The notes beneath the pieces were generated by a model. That model saw only the letters and a program-made list of their open reading frames with translations. It did no database searches and had not been told where the DNA came from. A DNA stretch of 64,000 nt from Pseudomonadota bacterium (lineage in GTDB: Bacteria; Pseudomonadota; Gammaproteobacteria; Steroidobacterales; Steroidobacteraceae), in the NCBI GenBank assembly GCA_021792755.1, contig JAJYUA010000004.1:1-64000 (forward strand), read 5' to 3'. The number at the start of each line of letters is the position of its first letter. Position 1 is the stretch's first letter. The translations under genes and the position numbers were made by a program. Below, piece by piece: positions 14,434 to 19,464 of the stretch.

Positions 14434-16809
14434 TCAGGCGGTGCGCTGGTATTTCTCGAGCGCCACGCGCACATCGTCCATGCTCTGGAAGCGCTTGGCC
14501 TTGTCGACGGCCATGGCGCGCATGACCAGCTCCGAGAGTCCGCGCGGCAGGGAGGCGTTGAGCTCTTGCGGGGGGCGGGCCTTGCCCTGCACGTGCTGGT
14601 ACATCACCGACATGTGATCGCCGCGCGAATAGGGCGGAGTGCCGGTGAGCATTTCGTAGAGGATCACGCCCAGGGCGTAGATGTCGGCGCGCTCGTCGAC
14701 CCGCTTGCCGAGGATCTGCTCGGGCGCCATGTACTTCGGCGAGCCGATGACGTAGCCGGTGCGGGTCAGCTGGGTCTCGCTCTCGCGCTGCGCGGCGGCC
14801 ACACCGAAGTCGACGATCTTCAGCAGTCCTTCCTCGTTGATCAGCACGTTCGCGGGCTTCAGATCCCGATGCACGATGCCCACGCGGTGCGCGACCGTCA
14901 TGCCGGTGCAGATGTCGGCGCCGAACTGCAGAGCGCGCCTGAGCTCGAGCGGCTTCTCCCCGGTGATCTCGCTGCCCAGGGTGTGCGAGGGGAAATACTC
15001 CATCGAGATCGCATAGTTTCCCTGGATGTAGAGGAAGTCGTAGATGCGGATGACGTTTTGGTGCGTGATCTTGCGCGAGTAGCGCAGCTCGTGCACGAAG
15101 CGCTTCATGACCTCCTCGTCCGTCGCCACATTGGGATTGAGGAACTTCAGGATCAGCCGCTCATCGACCACCGTGTCCTCCATCAGCAGCACGGTGCCGA
15201 AGGCGCCCTTGCCGATGCGCTCGAGGTACTTGTAGCGGCCTTCGAGGATGTCGCCGGTCCTGAGCGTCTGGATATCGAGCCGGGCGGCTTCCTTCGCCTG
15301 CGCCCGGCTCGGCGCGGGGGCCGGCGGGGCGGGCAGGGGGGACTCGGGCAGGACGATCTCCGCGGTCGCCGGCGCGGCGGCGAGGCGCCGCTCGAGATCG
15401 GCGAGCGCCGCTTCGGCGGCGCGGGCGATCGTCTCGTCGGGCGCGGCGGCCTGCGCCTTGAGCTGGCTGCGCACCGGCTCGGCGCCGCCGGCGTCGGCGA
15501 GAGCGGCGAGCGCCTGCATGGCCTCGATCCGCACCTCCCGCTCGGGCCTGCCGAGCAGCGGCATCAAGGTGTCGGCGAGCTGCGCATCGCCGAGCCTGCC
15601 GAGGGCGCGCACGACGATGGGCAGCGCCTTGGTCTTGCCCTCCCTCAGCATCTCGAGCAGCCGGGGCACGGCCCGCTTGCTGCCGATCTCGGCGAGTGCA
15701 TCGACCGCGCGCTCACTCACCCACCAGTCCGGGTCGCGGGTCGCCTGGATGAGCGAGTCGACGGCGCGCTCGTCCTTGGTCTGGTTGAGGATCTCGATGG
15801 CGGCGCGGCGGATGTCCTGGTCCTGGTCGCGCACCAGCTGCAGCACCGCATCGATGACTCGCGGGCCGCCGATCTTGCCGAGCGCATCCGCCGCCCGTGA
15901 GCGCACCCACCAGTCGCTGTCCTTCAGCGCCGCGAGCAGGTGTTTCACCGATTTGGCGTCGCCCACCTCGTTCAGCACCTCGACCGCGGCGCGCCGGGCG
16001 CTCTCGCTCTCGTCCTTGAGCACCGCGATCAGGTAGCGGATGGTATCCGGATCATTGGCTTTGATGACGACATCGACAGCCTTGTTCTGCACGTCGATCT
16101 CGGGATCCTTCAGCAGCTCGCAGACTTTCTCGACGTCGATCGCCCCATCCATGCGCTGCAGTGCCGACAGCGTCGCTCCGCGGATCAGCTTGTTGGGGTC
16201 GTTGAGCAGGCCCTGCAGCGCGGTGTGCACCTCGGGTGTGTTGAAGCGCGCGAGGACATTGACGATGTGCACGCGCGCGATGGGATCCTTGCCGTGCAGG
16301 CGCTGGATGAGCTCCGGCAGCGTGCCGGGGCCGGTGAGCTCCCCGATGATGCGAAAGAGCGCAGCCTTCTCGTTCGGCTCCTGGGTATAGGCGGCGTTCA
16401 GCAGCTCGCGCACCGTGAAGCGGGACTTGTGCGCGGCGATGACCTCCAGGAGCTTCGCCTTGGCGATCCCCGGGGTCGACAGCGCATCGAGCAGCAGGTT
16501 CGGCGGGAAGTTGCGGCTGCTGGTGAGCGCCCAGGCGATCCCCGCGATCACCCGCGGACTGCCCTCGACCAGCCCCTGCATGAATTGGGGGAGGGTTTTG
16601 GGACTCACCAGGTGCGCCAGGACCTCGACCAGGGCGAGCGTGGCGTTCTTGTCGGCCTCGGACAGTGCCGCGAGGATCGGGCCGATCGCGCCCGGCCCGA
16701 GCTCCTTGAGGCGCGCAATGGATTTTTGGGTTTCCGCGCTCGCCGGGTCCGCCGAGGAGCGGATGCCGGTGATCAGCCGGTCGGCGCGCACATTGGTTAA
16801 AAAGCTCAT
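14434..16809 (-). CDS. HEAT-repeat protein fused to a Hanks-type Ser/Thr kinase
   Basis: 791 residues. Residues ~25-490 are a chain of HEAT-like helical repeats (repeated units such as DSDWWVRSRAADALGKIG and DPDWWVSERAVDALAEIG). A Pro/Ala linker follows, then a kinase domain at 522-791: glycine loop GKGAFG, invariant Lys555 (LILKFL), HRDLKPAN (Asp648), DFG (667-669) and APE in YMAPEQ. All catalytic residues are present, so it should be active. No transmembrane or PASTA segment is visible. ATG 16809 gives MSFLTNVRADRLITG; the frame stays open to 17082 but that region is poor. It is 120 bases upstream of the pilT-like gene on the same strand. The substrate is unknown; control of pilus retraction is an inference from position. 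Confidence 0.9.
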   Translation of the reverse strand: MSFLTNVRADRLITGIRSSADPASAETQKSIARLKELGPGAIGPILAALSEADKNATLALVEVLAHLVSPKTLPQFMQGLVEGSPRVIAGIAWALTSSRNFPPNLLLDALSTPGIAKAKLLEVIAAHKSRFTVRELLNAAYTQEPNEKAALFRIIGELTGPGTLPELIQRLHGKDPIARVHIVNVLARFNTPEVHTALQGLLNDPNKLIRGATLSALQRMDGAIDVEKVCELLKDPEIDVQNKAVDVVIKANDPDTIRYLIAVLKDESESARRAAVEVLNEVGDAKSVKHLLAALKDSDWWVRSRAADALGKIGGPRVIDAVLQLVRDQDQDIRRAAIEILNQTKDERAVDSLIQATRDPDWWVSERAVDALAEIGSKRAVPRLLEMLREGKTKALPIVVRALGRLGDAQLADTLMPLLGRPEREVRIEAMQALAALADAGGAEPVRSQLKAQAAAPDETIARAAEAALADLERRLAAAPATAEIVLPESPLPAPPAPAPSRAQAKEAARLDIQTLRTGDILEGRYKYLERIGKGAFGTVLLMEDTVVDERLILKFLNPNVATDEEVMKRFVHELRYSRKITHQNVIRIYDFLYIQGNYAISMEYFPSHTLGSEITGEKPLELRRALQFGADICTGMTVAHRVGIVHRDLKPANVLINEEGLLKIVDFGVAAAQRESETQLTRTGYVIGSPKYMAPEQILGKRVDERADIYALGVILYEMLTGTPPYSRGDHMSVMYQHVQGKARPPQELNASLPRGLSELVMRAMAVDKAKRFQSMDDVRVALEKYQRTA

Positions 16810-17065
16810 CAGCCGGTCTGCCGAGGCACTCCAGTGCTCCCCCTGCCCGCCCCGTTTCGTTGCGTCCCGGCACCGCTGGAACGACGCGGATCGCTTCCAG
16901 CTCGCCAGGCGCCGGGTTCTTGGGACTTCGCGGGGGGCGCTCGATGGCAGTATGCCACAGGCCGGCCGCCGCCCGCGCTCTTGCATGGCGCACAATCCAT
17001 GCGCGCGCTCCCGCGAGCCTCTAGAATACCCTTCCCTGATTTTCCCCCTGCGTCCCGACTGCCCT

Positions 17066-18163
17066 ATGAGCGACGATTCCACCCTGGATGCCCTGCGCGC
17101 GGCGATCGAGTCTTACGTCGATCCGTATCTGCATCAGACGCTGCGCGAGGCGGCCGCGCTCAAGGAGCTGTCCTTCTCGGAGGGCGGCTATCGCGTGCGC
17201 ATCGGGGTGGGGTACCCCGTGGGAGGCTATCAGGAGCAGCTCGCCTCGGCGCTGAAGGCGCACGTGGCGGCGGCGGGGCTGAGCAGCCCCTTCGAGGTGC
17301 AGGTGCAGTCGCTGATCCGCGCTCACGCCGTGCAACGGCCGCTGCAGCCGATCGGGCAGATCAGGAACATCGTGGCGGTGGCCTCGGGCAAGGGCGGGGT
17401 GGGCAAGTCCACCGTGGCGGCGAATCTCGCCCTCGCCTGGGCCCAACAAGGGGCTCGGGTGGGGGTGCTGGATGCGGATATCTACGGGCCGAGCCAGCCC
17501 CTGATGCTCGGCCTCTCGGGCGAGAAGCCCTTCTCCCCCGACGGCAAGCACATCGAGCCGCTGAAGAGGCACGGGGTGGAGGCGATGTCCATCGGCTTTC
17601 TGGCCGATTCCGATCAGCCGATGGTGTGGCGAGGCCCCATGGTCACCCAGGCGCTGAGTCAGCTGCTGTCCCAGACCCGCTGGGGCGAGCTCGATTACCT
17701 CGTCATCGACATGCCGCCCGGCACCGGGGACATTCAGCTGACGCTCGCTCAGCGCGTGCCCGTGGCAGGTGCCGTGATCGTCACGACGCCCCAGGATATC
17801 GCGCTGACCGATGCCAGCAAGGGCCTCAAGATGTTCGAGAAGGTCTCGGTGCCCGTCCTCGGCATCGTGGAGAACATGAGCGTGCACGTGTGCTCGCAGT
17901 GCGGACACATCGAGCACATCTTCGGCGAAGGCGGCGGAGCGCGCATGGCCGCCCAGCACGGCGTGAGGCTTCTCGGCGAGCTGCCCCTCGATGTGCACAT
18001 CCGCGAGGAGGCCGACGGCGGGCAGCCCACGGTGATCGCGGCTCCCGGCTCGCCCCGCGCCAAGGCGTATATCGAGATGGCGCGCCACACGGCCGGGGCG
18101 CTGGCGGTGCGGCCGCTCGACCACAGCAGCGCGTTTCCCAGGATCGTCGTTGAGAAAAAGTGA
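17066..18163 (+). CDS. mrp: Mrp/ApbC iron-sulfur cluster carrier ATPase
   Basis: P-loop ATPase that binds and transfers Fe-S clusters to apoproteins. 365 residues: an N-terminal MIP18-like domain (~1-90), then the deviant Walker A GKGGVGKST, VLDADIYGPSQP, DMPPGTGD and the cluster-binding CxxC in HVCSQCGH. ATG 17066 gives MSDDSTLDALRAAIES; the frame upstream is open but overlaps the divergent kinase start region. In pseudomonads the homologue lies between metG and dcd, as here with insertions. It is likely needed for Nth, the RnfB-like protein and the formate dehydrogenase in this window. Confidence 0.95.
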   Translation: MSDDSTLDALRAAIESYVDPYLHQTLREAAALKELSFSEGGYRVRIGVGYPVGGYQEQLASALKAHVAAAGLSSPFEVQVQSLIRAHAVQRPLQPIGQIRNIVAVASGKGGVGKSTVAANLALAWAQQGARVGVLDADIYGPSQPLMLGLSGEKPFSPDGKHIEPLKRHGVEAMSIGFLADSDQPMVWRGPMVTQALSQLLSQTRWGELDYLVIDMPPGTGDIQLTLAQRVPVAGAVIVTTPQDIALTDASKGLKMFEKVSVPVLGIVENMSVHVCSQCGHIEHIFGEGGGARMAAQHGVRLLGELPLDVHIREEADGGQPTVIAAPGSPRAKAYIEMARHTAGALAVRPLDHSSAFPRIVVEKK

Positions 18164-18300: not shown

Positions 18301-19464
18301 ATGAGCATCAAATCCGACCACTGGATCCGCCGCATGGCGCGCGAGCAGCGCATGATCGAGCCGTTCGAGGCCGAACAGGTTCGTTACGTCGACGGCCGCA
18401 AGATCGTCTCCTACGGGACCTCGAGCTACGGCTACGACGTGCGCTGCGCGGACGAGTTCAAGATCTTCACCAACATCAATTCCACCATCGTCGACCCGAA
18501 GGGCTTCGACGAGAAGAGCTTCGTGGACCTGAAGTCCGCCGTGTGCGTGATTCCGCCGAACTCTTTTGCGCTGGCGCGCACGGTGGAATATTTTCGGATT
18601 CCGCGCAGCGTGCTCACCGTCACCTTGGGCAAGTCCACGTACGCAAGGTGTTTCCGGGGGGATACTCGCGTGGCACTGGCGGACGGCACCGCGCCGACTC
18701 TCGAGGACATGGCGCGCCGCCATGATTCCGGTGAGCGTTTCCGCGGCTACAGCATCGGGCCCGCCGGCCGGCTGATCGTGTCGCTGCTCGATGCGCCCCG
18801 GTTCATCGGGCGCGACTCGCTGCTCGAGATCGAGCTGGATGGCGGGCAGCGCATCCGCGCCACGGCGGATCATCAGTTCATGCGGCGCGATGGCCGAATG
18901 GCGCAAGCGCAGACACTGCGTCCGGGCGACGCTCTCATGCCGCTGTACCGTGATCCGGCCGCAGGCTGCGAGGCCGTGTATGAGCCGATCGATGGATACC
19001 TGTACGCCACGCACCGGCTCGTGGAGCAGTGCAATCGCAGGCACGGAATCCATGCGGCCGCGCCGGGCACCCTTCGCCACCACGCGCAGCTCAATCGCCG
19101 CGCCGAGCCGATTGGCGGCGCTCCGGTGTATCGGAATCACAAGGTCATGGCGATCCGGGAGTTGCCCGGCGACCACGATGTCTATTGCTTGACGGTCCCG
19201 GAGGCCGGCAACTTCGCTCTGCACGCGGGGGTGTTCGTCCGCAATTGCGGCATCATCGTGAACGTGACGCCCCTGGAGCCGGAGTGGGAAGGGCACGTCA
19301 CGCTGGAGTTCTCCAACACCACGCCGCTGCCGGCGAAGATCTATGCCAACGAGGGTGTGGCGCAGATGCTGTTCTTCGAGTCGGACGAGGTGTGCGCGAC
19401 CTCCTACAAGGATCGCGGCGGCAAGTACCAGGGGCAGCGGGGCGTGACGCTGCCGAAGATCTGA
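18301..19464 (+). CDS. dcd: dCTP deaminase precursor interrupted by an intein
   Basis: dCTP deaminase makes dUTP for thymidylate synthesis. The frame encodes 387 residues: N-extein 1-116, intein 117-315, C-extein 316-387. Joined exteins give 188 residues, the usual length of the pseudomonad-type enzyme, with no gap at the junction: the conserved GKSTYAR is followed after splicing by [18 protein letters not shown]. This motif builds the triphosphate-binding active site, so the unspliced precursor should be inactive. ATG 18301 ([13 protein letters not shown]) matches family starts. mrp is 137 bases upstream; the DUF3108 gene converges downstream. Confidence 0.95.
18649..19245 (+). other. Mini-intein within dcd
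   Basis: 199-residue in-frame insertion. Block A starts with Cys117 ([13 protein letters not shown]). Block B has Thr188-x-x-His191 ([11 protein letters not shown]). Block F is [17 protein letters not shown] and block G ends VFVRN, followed by the C-extein Cys (+1). Cys1, the block-B His, the terminal Asn315 and Cys+1 are present; the usual penultimate His is Arg314. The central section is too short for a LAGLIDADG endonuclease but contains [12 protein letters not shown] and [12 protein letters not shown], resembling a decayed HNH domain. Splicing is predicted, not shown. Confidence 0.9.

Follow-up and report, generated by a model that had tools for sequence, protein, structure and literature searches.

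A predicted class 1 mini-intein in the active-site motif of a chromosomal dCTP deaminase, and its alleles in related bacteria

The interrupted dcd gene and its intein

The DNA analyzed here is a stretch of 64,000 nucleotides, referred to below as the window, from a draft genome (3.76 Mb, 57 contigs) of a bacterium of the Steroidobacteraceae. It carries a gene for dCTP deaminase (Dcd) in which residues 117-315 of the 387-residue precursor form an in-frame insertion, located directly behind the active-site motif GKSTYAR (Table 1). This position, immediately after the R, is called site b; site a, which is used in relatives, lies between the K and the S of the same motif. The equivalog profile TIGR02274 matched the flanking parts of the precursor (residues 1-116 and 316-387) with 140.2 bits (cut-off 92.8), and PF22769 matched with 97.6 bits (cut-off 27). 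The two exteins, of 116 and 72 residues, add up to 188 residues, as the preliminary description of this DNA had stated, and equal the uninterrupted Dcd of relatives. In the first tree, every one of the 43 rows (38 from the genus and 5 from the order) has exteins of 564 bases.

Table 1. Features of the interrupted dcd gene in the window and related loci mentioned in the text
Feature	Position	Strand	Description	Support
dcd open reading frame, intein-bearing	18301-19464	+	387 aa, ATG start
N-extein	18301-18648	+	Dcd residues 1-116, ending in GKSTYAR	TIGR02274 and PF22769 above cut-off
Active-site motif	18628-18648	+	GKSTYAR	shared with 4dhk and 3km3, two solved structures of Dcd
Predicted mini-intein, class 1	18649-19245	+	199 aa; Cys1 ... 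Asn199, Cys+1	profiles, fold model, alignment of 19 homologues
First intein block	18649-18687	+	contains Cys1	sequence, TIGR01445
Block B	18841-18882	+	TADH, with Thr72 and His75	both invariant in 19/19 aligned
Putative HNH endonuclease motif remnant	19075-19101	+	RHHAQLNRR	alignment with the 376-aa inteins of G020 and G066 and with CL131
Block F	19168-19221	+	Cys180, presumed F:4	alignment; invariant in 19/19 aligned
Block G	19222-19245	+	HAGVFVRN; terminal Asn, Arg in place of penultimate His	sequence, TIGR01443
C-extein	19246-19464	+	72 Dcd residues from Cys+1 (CGIIVNVTP...), including stop	TIGR02274, PF22769
Double-intein Dcds of relatives	L028:2005-4374; L059:1420-3804; L096, L097		same arrangement in L096 and L097
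Two-domain Dcd loci of nine genus genomes	L276-L284

The motif comparison with 4dhk and 3km3 was made by alignment against an intein-free relative (G022). In the comparison of Dcd structures, residues 77-186 of 1xs1 aligned by phmmer to residues 77-183 of the query; the active-site residues of the Escherichia coli enzyme are presumably those numbered S111 and R115. Because the insertion parts the R from the C beside the active-site loop, Dcd would be inactive before splicing.

The insertion itself was matched above cut-off by three intein profiles: PF14890 (Intein_splicing, 47.8 bits, cut-off 35.8) and, for the N- and C-terminal splicing regions, TIGR01445 (31.5 bits against a cut-off of 24.5) and TIGR01443 (19.3 bits against 15.6). 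An AlphaFold2 model of the intein, built with an alignment of 20 sequences, has a mean pLDDT of 87.0 and a pTM of 0.81; pLDDT stays below 50 over three or more residues only at 142-149, a segment overlapping the HNH remnant. A model of the whole precursor from 14 aligned rows reached a pLDDT of 49.7 with unfolded exteins and was not used. With the intein model, Foldseek retrieved 63 solved chains at E <= 0.001, and among the 50 matches listed, all are inteins or related Hint domains (hedgehog, BIL). The best match is the Synechocystis DnaE intein (E 4.2e-10), and DnaE, DnaB, and RecA inteins make up the top matches. The classical splicing domains of the Mtu RecA, Ssp DnaB, Ssp DnaE, and Npu DnaE inteins share the Hint fold and the catalytic residues with the window intein (E 4e-10 to 2e-7, about 16-20% identity); their host genes and sites are different. 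The coordinates and the lengths of 199 and 188 residues given in the preliminary description are exact, and a mini-intein at the active-site motif of Dcd is supported alike by the profile matches, by the confidently modelled fold, and by near relatives.

The catalytic set of class 1 is complete in the precursor (C117, T188, H191, N315, C316), and C1, T72, H75, C180, and N199 of the intein are invariant in all 19 aligned homologues. Cys1, the block-B His, the terminal Asn, and Cys+1 had been recognized earlier; the Arg before that Asn (Arg314) is a further detail. It replaces the penultimate His, a usual though not universal feature of class 1. The Cys of block F stands at what we take to be position F:4, which is Asp in many inteins. 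Class 3 was considered for this Cys; inteins of that class have no nucleophile at residue 1, and they carry Trp after the block-B His, Cys at F:4, and Thr at +1. The assignment was ruled out by Cys1, the Gln after His75, and Cys+1. A BIL or hedgehog-type domain was likewise ruled out, by Cys+1 and the exact extein join. Sequence and fold model thus identify the insertion as a class 1 mini-intein at site b of Dcd. No Pfam HNH match was obtained in it up to E 1, and the short remnant takes its fuller form in the relative G020: RHHIDFDPRNNRP.

The genes around dcd look chromosomal, and a prophage origin was dismissed. An Mrp-type P-loop NTPase gene (PF10609) lies upstream; downstream lie genes for DUF3108, a formyl transferase (PurN-like), and an AIR synthase (PurM-like) on the other strand. 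The window also contains, at 14434-17082 on the minus strand, an 882-residue frame that combines HEAT repeats with a Ser/Thr kinase domain at its C-terminal end. In the whole draft, which is 96% complete, the dcd intein is the single match of PF14890, and no second Dcd, the two-domain type included, was found. Nor was a dCMP deaminase found by PF00383, whose matches are RibD and a protein named by eye as TadA-like. The earlier statement that dUTP production by way of Dcd obliges the cell to splice this protein is therefore a fair inference; ribonucleotide reductase is another possible source of dUTP.

A closely comparable intein is known from a phage. PMC6293099 reports that Aphanizomenon phage vB_AphaS-CL131 has an intein in its dCTP deaminase and that this intein excises itself in E. 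coli, as judged by SDS-PAGE. That intein (ORF069, MG209611) sits at the same codon as that of the window (GKSTYAR/C...FVKN/CGII). Both have a homologous splicing domain (34% identity), a 72-residue C-extein, a block-F Cys, and a penultimate residue other than His (Lys in CL131, Arg in the window). The CL131 intein has 352 residues, HNH_3 above cut-off, and a C-terminal stretch in common with the long inteins of the genus, whereas that of the window has 199 residues and a putative HNH remnant. Splicing was demonstrated for the phage intein (PMC6293099) and is predicted for the chromosomal one. Among 100 phage records matching the window protein, only CL131 covers at least 80% of it, and none of 19 matching plasmid records does. 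No description of a Dcd intein in a bacterial chromosome was found in the open-licence literature searched. The passages checked in PMC5371798, PMC7019647, PMC3608112, and PMC7412058 contained no Dcd intein, and word searches of PMC2814812, PMC3359363, and PMC7765530 gave no bacterial one. The remark that the site may be little described was nearly right: a chromosomal case was not found, but the phage case is published. The insertion site is already known, and the chromosomal setting is new.

Alleles, selection, and descent within the genus

Among 58 genomes of the genus, 18 hold an intein at site b, one (G070) holds one at site a only, 21 have an empty site, 3 are cut by contig ends, and 15 have no canonical dcd. 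The 21 empty sites comprise 20 whole 188-residue Dcds and G015, where the joined site lies on a cut contig. The site-b inteins form a graded series: two of 376 aa (G020 and G066), then single ones of 307, 280, 253, 252, 241, 227, and 224 aa, and nine mini-inteins of 190-199 aa. In alignment, both 376-aa inteins have the HNH pattern and the C-terminal stretch common to CL131. When HNH_3 was tried on five b-type inteins, it was above cut-off in CL131 only and below cut-off in two. In G020 and G066, no Pfam HNH domain was obtained at E <= 0.1, and the assignment of an endonuclease to them therefore rests on motif and alignment. Three genomes, namely that of the window (G000), G003, and G018, carry 199-aa inteins with a common deletion. 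Near relatives may differ in allele: the empty G022 and the 376-aa holder G066 are identical at 524 of 564 extein bases, and the empty G024 and the other 376-aa holder, G020, at 526.

Recurrence in independent genomes shows that the insertion is neither a chance finding nor an assembly artefact: 17 further members of the genus have it at the identical codon, as do all 80 of the loci obtained from named genomes (see below).

A different fate of the gene can be observed in nine of the 58 genomes (G065, G032, G035, G005, G025, G010, G016, G021, and G036), which encode a two-domain Dcd (NF005734/PRK07559). The two types are mutually exclusive, since none of these nine has a canonical dcd and none of the 43 genomes with a canonical dcd has the two-domain type. 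In eight of the nine, Mrp motifs adjoin the two-domain gene as they do dcd (seven on the same strand and one on the other); one lacks them. The sequence NPKSSTGRLD replaces the STYAR/C site in all nine. Gene content and position thus suggest that, in these nine genomes, dcd was replaced in place by a Dcd that lacks the homing site. The six genomes with neither Dcd type are drafts of 75-83% completeness.

Inteins also occur in other genes of the genus. DnaB replicative helicase inteins are present at L268, L269, and L270 (G001, G003, and G021), all three of which were read, and profile matches indicate one in an error-prone DnaE-type polymerase (L272, G079). A 1419-residue aconitase AcnA frame in G025 (L271, contig C104) contains a long insertion with a weak match to the intein query and may possibly hold an intein as well.

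Selection was estimated by the pairwise NG86 method for 17 pairs of the genus, which are non-independent and in several of which dS exceeds 1. Extein omega is 0.02-0.13, and 0.11-0.13 in the window's clade. In the splicing domain (154 codons), omega is 0.04-0.28 in all 17 pairs and 0.19-0.28 in that clade. The middle region, where the endonuclease or its remnant lies, behaves in a less uniform manner. The three pairs of the window's clade gave 1.88, 0.76, and 0.57 over 45 codons, the other five pairs of mini-inteins 0.56-1.42, and comparisons among G020, G023, and G026 0.92-1.27; the two 376-aa inteins gave 0.12 over 222 codons. Values of 0.21 (G066-G000) and 0.31 (G066-G018) were also obtained, as were 0.06, 0.62, and 0.11 when G074, G017, and G034 were compared with one another. 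Relaxed selection on the middle region is thus not general, because four pairs (G066-G000, G066-G018, G074-G017, and G017-G034) give 0.06-0.31. Purifying selection acts on the splicing domains; in the window's clade, none is apparent in what is left of the endonuclease. This fits a pattern in which splicing is selected everywhere and the endonuclease is kept while whole and released once broken.

These values bear on the idea that the insertion is dead, with poor splicing, a decaying gene, and Dcd supplied in some other way. The Arg in place of the penultimate His and the degraded endonuclease might be read in that sense. The low omega of exteins and splicing domain in the window's clade, together with a genome in which neither a second or two-domain Dcd nor a dCMP deaminase by PF00383 was found, make it extremely improbable. 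The Arg before Asn does not in itself predict failure, because CL131 splices with Lys in that position. Splicing of the window precursor is predicted from the open frame, the catalytic residues, the modelled fold, the conservation, the selection, and the CL131 homologue.

The history of the alleles is more complex. On an extein tree of 44 rows, from which G015, G007, G029, and G031 were omitted owing to cut contigs, presence of the b intein requires 9 changes. Clade tests reject the monophyly of all holders (p-AU 5e-11) and also that of the nine minis (p 0.0016); the extein tree had been seen ahead of these tests, and the groups were defined from the sequences rather than from the tree. The rejection of one clade of minis implies that they arose repeatedly or were shuffled. 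In quick trees of 87 rows, with many weak forks, 20 changes were counted for all groups on the intein tree versus 15 on the extein tree. These trees exclude 18 duplicate loci (copies of genus genomes or of one another), include 10 exteins shortened to 114 residues, and retain L151 with its third insertion (537 residues).

Such patchiness in the genus, the two rejected clades, and the greater mixing of groups on the quick intein tree may all be taken to favor the view that the mini-intein entered this lineage recently by horizontal transfer, perhaps through homing in trans with the endonuclease of a relative. Changes counted on the extein tree, however, do not separate gain from loss. Moreover, the ratio of splicing-domain to extein dS in the three pairs of the window's clade is 0.28/0.26, 0.68/0.25, and 0.53/0.33; splicing-domain dS is not lower than extein dS, as expected under vertical descent, and the deletion is common to the three members. 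A recent arrival is therefore considered very unlikely. The extein tree groups G000 with G003 (support 98/93) and both with G018 (84/86), and the quick intein tree recovers the G000-G003 pair (97), with G018 in an unresolved position. Vertical descent of the window's clade since the endonuclease was lost is the best reading of these sequences.

Occurrence beyond the genus and a second insertion site

Named genomes were scanned with an intein alignment. The scan gave 155 confirmed stretches, and the best 80 of these were fetched. In all 80, the intein is located at site b of Dcd (S[ST][YF]AR/C). Both junctions were parsed in 78 loci; L084 was read by eye at both junctions and L117, at a contig end, at the first only, and the tallies of 78 leave these two out. 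By record title, 49 of the 80 loci belong to Pseudomonadota, 15 to Chloroflexota, and 10 to Cyanobacteriota, 2 have no assignment, and Elusimicrobiota, Planctomycetota, Actinomycetota, and Deinococcota are represented by one locus each. Four of these seven phyla thus rest on one metagenome bin apiece, and single bins are possibly misnamed.

Within the 78 parsed loci, intein length ranges from 152 to 383 aa; the HNH pattern is present in all 29 inteins longer than 300 aa versus 2 of the 27 with at most 215 aa. Cys+1 is present in all 78, and the block-F motif V[YF]CL[TS] in 77. The penultimate residue is His in 42, Ser in 12, Arg in 11, Lys in 10, Gly in 2, and Leu in 1, so that residues other than His occur in 36 of 78, and in 7 of the 18 holders in the genus. 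His is the usual residue in inteins (PMC7765530).

The intein model matched 27 of 396 genomes in a sample of the order and 4 of 369 in a sample of the class, the window's own included in both; outside the genus these are matches to the model, mostly not read as Dcd. With 3 of 368 other genomes, the idea of a feature of the whole class was rejected.

Eight viral contigs contain an intein at site b (L135 and L149 are one contig, as are L136 and L150). Two of them hold short ones, of 166 aa (L148:3001-4065) and 137 aa (L150:3001-3990), and that of L148 is very divergent, with a branch length of 8.8 in a quick tree, which may point to an independent intein family at this codon.

At site a, relatives carry inteins of about 400 aa between Lys and Ser (GK/STYAR), with LAGLIDADG_3 above cut-off in both of the two tested. 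In the sample of the order, the site-a model matched 35 of 396 genomes. All 12 strong matches that were read, which do not include a split one in G324, are Dcd, 9 with site a alone and 3 with both sites; those weaker matches that were inspected fall in different host proteins, for instance DnaB. Both inteins are present in four distinct Dcds: G001 (= L106), L059 (= G307), L096 (= G294), and Chromatium okenii DSM 169 (L097). In all four, the middle extein consists of STYAR and nothing more. Only site b is occupied in C. okenii LaCa (L090). The b inteins of the two strains are 97.3% identical (683/702), compared with 91.4% for the N-exteins, 94.0% for the C-exteins, and 77.8% and 68.0% for the flanks; site a thus differs between related but non-identical loci. 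Viral contigs scanned with the site-a inteins gave 26 loci, none with a Dcd motif. In one viral contig, L151 (IMGVR_UViG_3300049489_000838), Dcd carries the site-b intein and, a few residues downstream, before the W of WKGHLTLEFSN, a third insertion, CLHPDTEV...GN/S, which looks like another intein.

A published parallel is haloarchaeal MCM, in which two mobile inteins occupy separate sites and double and single alleles occur in related lineages, as described in PMC10643990. Both MCM inteins are of the LAGLIDADG type in that account, whereas the double Dcds combine one HNH and one LAGLIDADG type at sites 5 codons apart, with the active-site peptide as middle extein. The resemblance concerns the double-intein Dcds of relatives; the window has site b only. 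Neighboring inteins with a middle extein as short as STYAR were not found in the literature searched, and no priority is claimed. A broader proposal would make Dcd a general hotspot with two to three intein sites round one active-site loop, in which the double form is retained because its two unrelated inteins, on either side of the five-residue active-site peptide, lock dUTP supply in two steps and are more than coincident parasites, and from which some lineages escape through the in-place two-domain Dcd that has no site. We regard this proposal as very doubtful.

Proposed mechanism and significance

Following the chemistry of the family, Cys1 would attack the Arg116-Cys117 bond and the N-extein would pass to Cys+1; cyclization of Asn199 would then release the intein and give an active dCTP deaminase of 188 residues. 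The ancestor would have been a homing intein with an HNH endonuclease, such as in CL131 and, by motif only, in the two 376-residue inteins of the genus. The endonuclease was probably deleted in the common ancestor of G000, G003, and G018, where a short HNH remnant stays. A mini-intein of this kind could not home by itself and would persist through vertical descent, since a cell that lost splicing would lose Dcd with it, and precise removal of the insertion is a rare event. A regulatory role would be unnecessary for this explanation.

Such a role was suggested in the preliminary description, in that splicing could act as a switch, and nothing in favor of the suggestion was found. In its fuller form, the intein would be retained as a post-translational switch on Dcd, and hence on dUTP and dTTP supply, that responds to oxidation, metals, or cold. 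The retention of the mini-intein across at least three lineages and its position beside the active-site Arg would agree with this; three conserved cysteines (Cys1, Cys180, and Cys+1) could sense redox state, and conditional splicing is reported for other inteins (PMC6195587 and PMC7360933). Yet selection for splicing alone explains the retention, 21 members of the genus do without an intein at the site, the penultimate residue drifts freely, and extein position -3 has no cysteine. Conditional splicing is thus very unlikely here. The account given above as a whole, a self-splicing mini-intein in a chromosomal dcd gene, derived from an HNH-bearing ancestor and persisting vertically with no regulatory role, is held to be highly probable.

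The main interest of these observations lies in the allele series across one genus and in the double inteins of relatives. The range of the Dcd intein widens from one cyanophage, the described host, to the chromosomes of bacteria in several phyla (seven by record title), and the insertion is always at one codon among the loci examined. Within one genus, empty, long, shortened, and mini alleles form a natural series in which ideas on the intein life cycle can be tested. The free drift of the penultimate residue among His, Ser, Arg, Lys, Gly, and Leu in one family will aid studies of the last splicing step. The double inteins pose a chemical question, namely how both splice through an extein of five residues, and the Dcds that carry them may yield tools for protein ligation.
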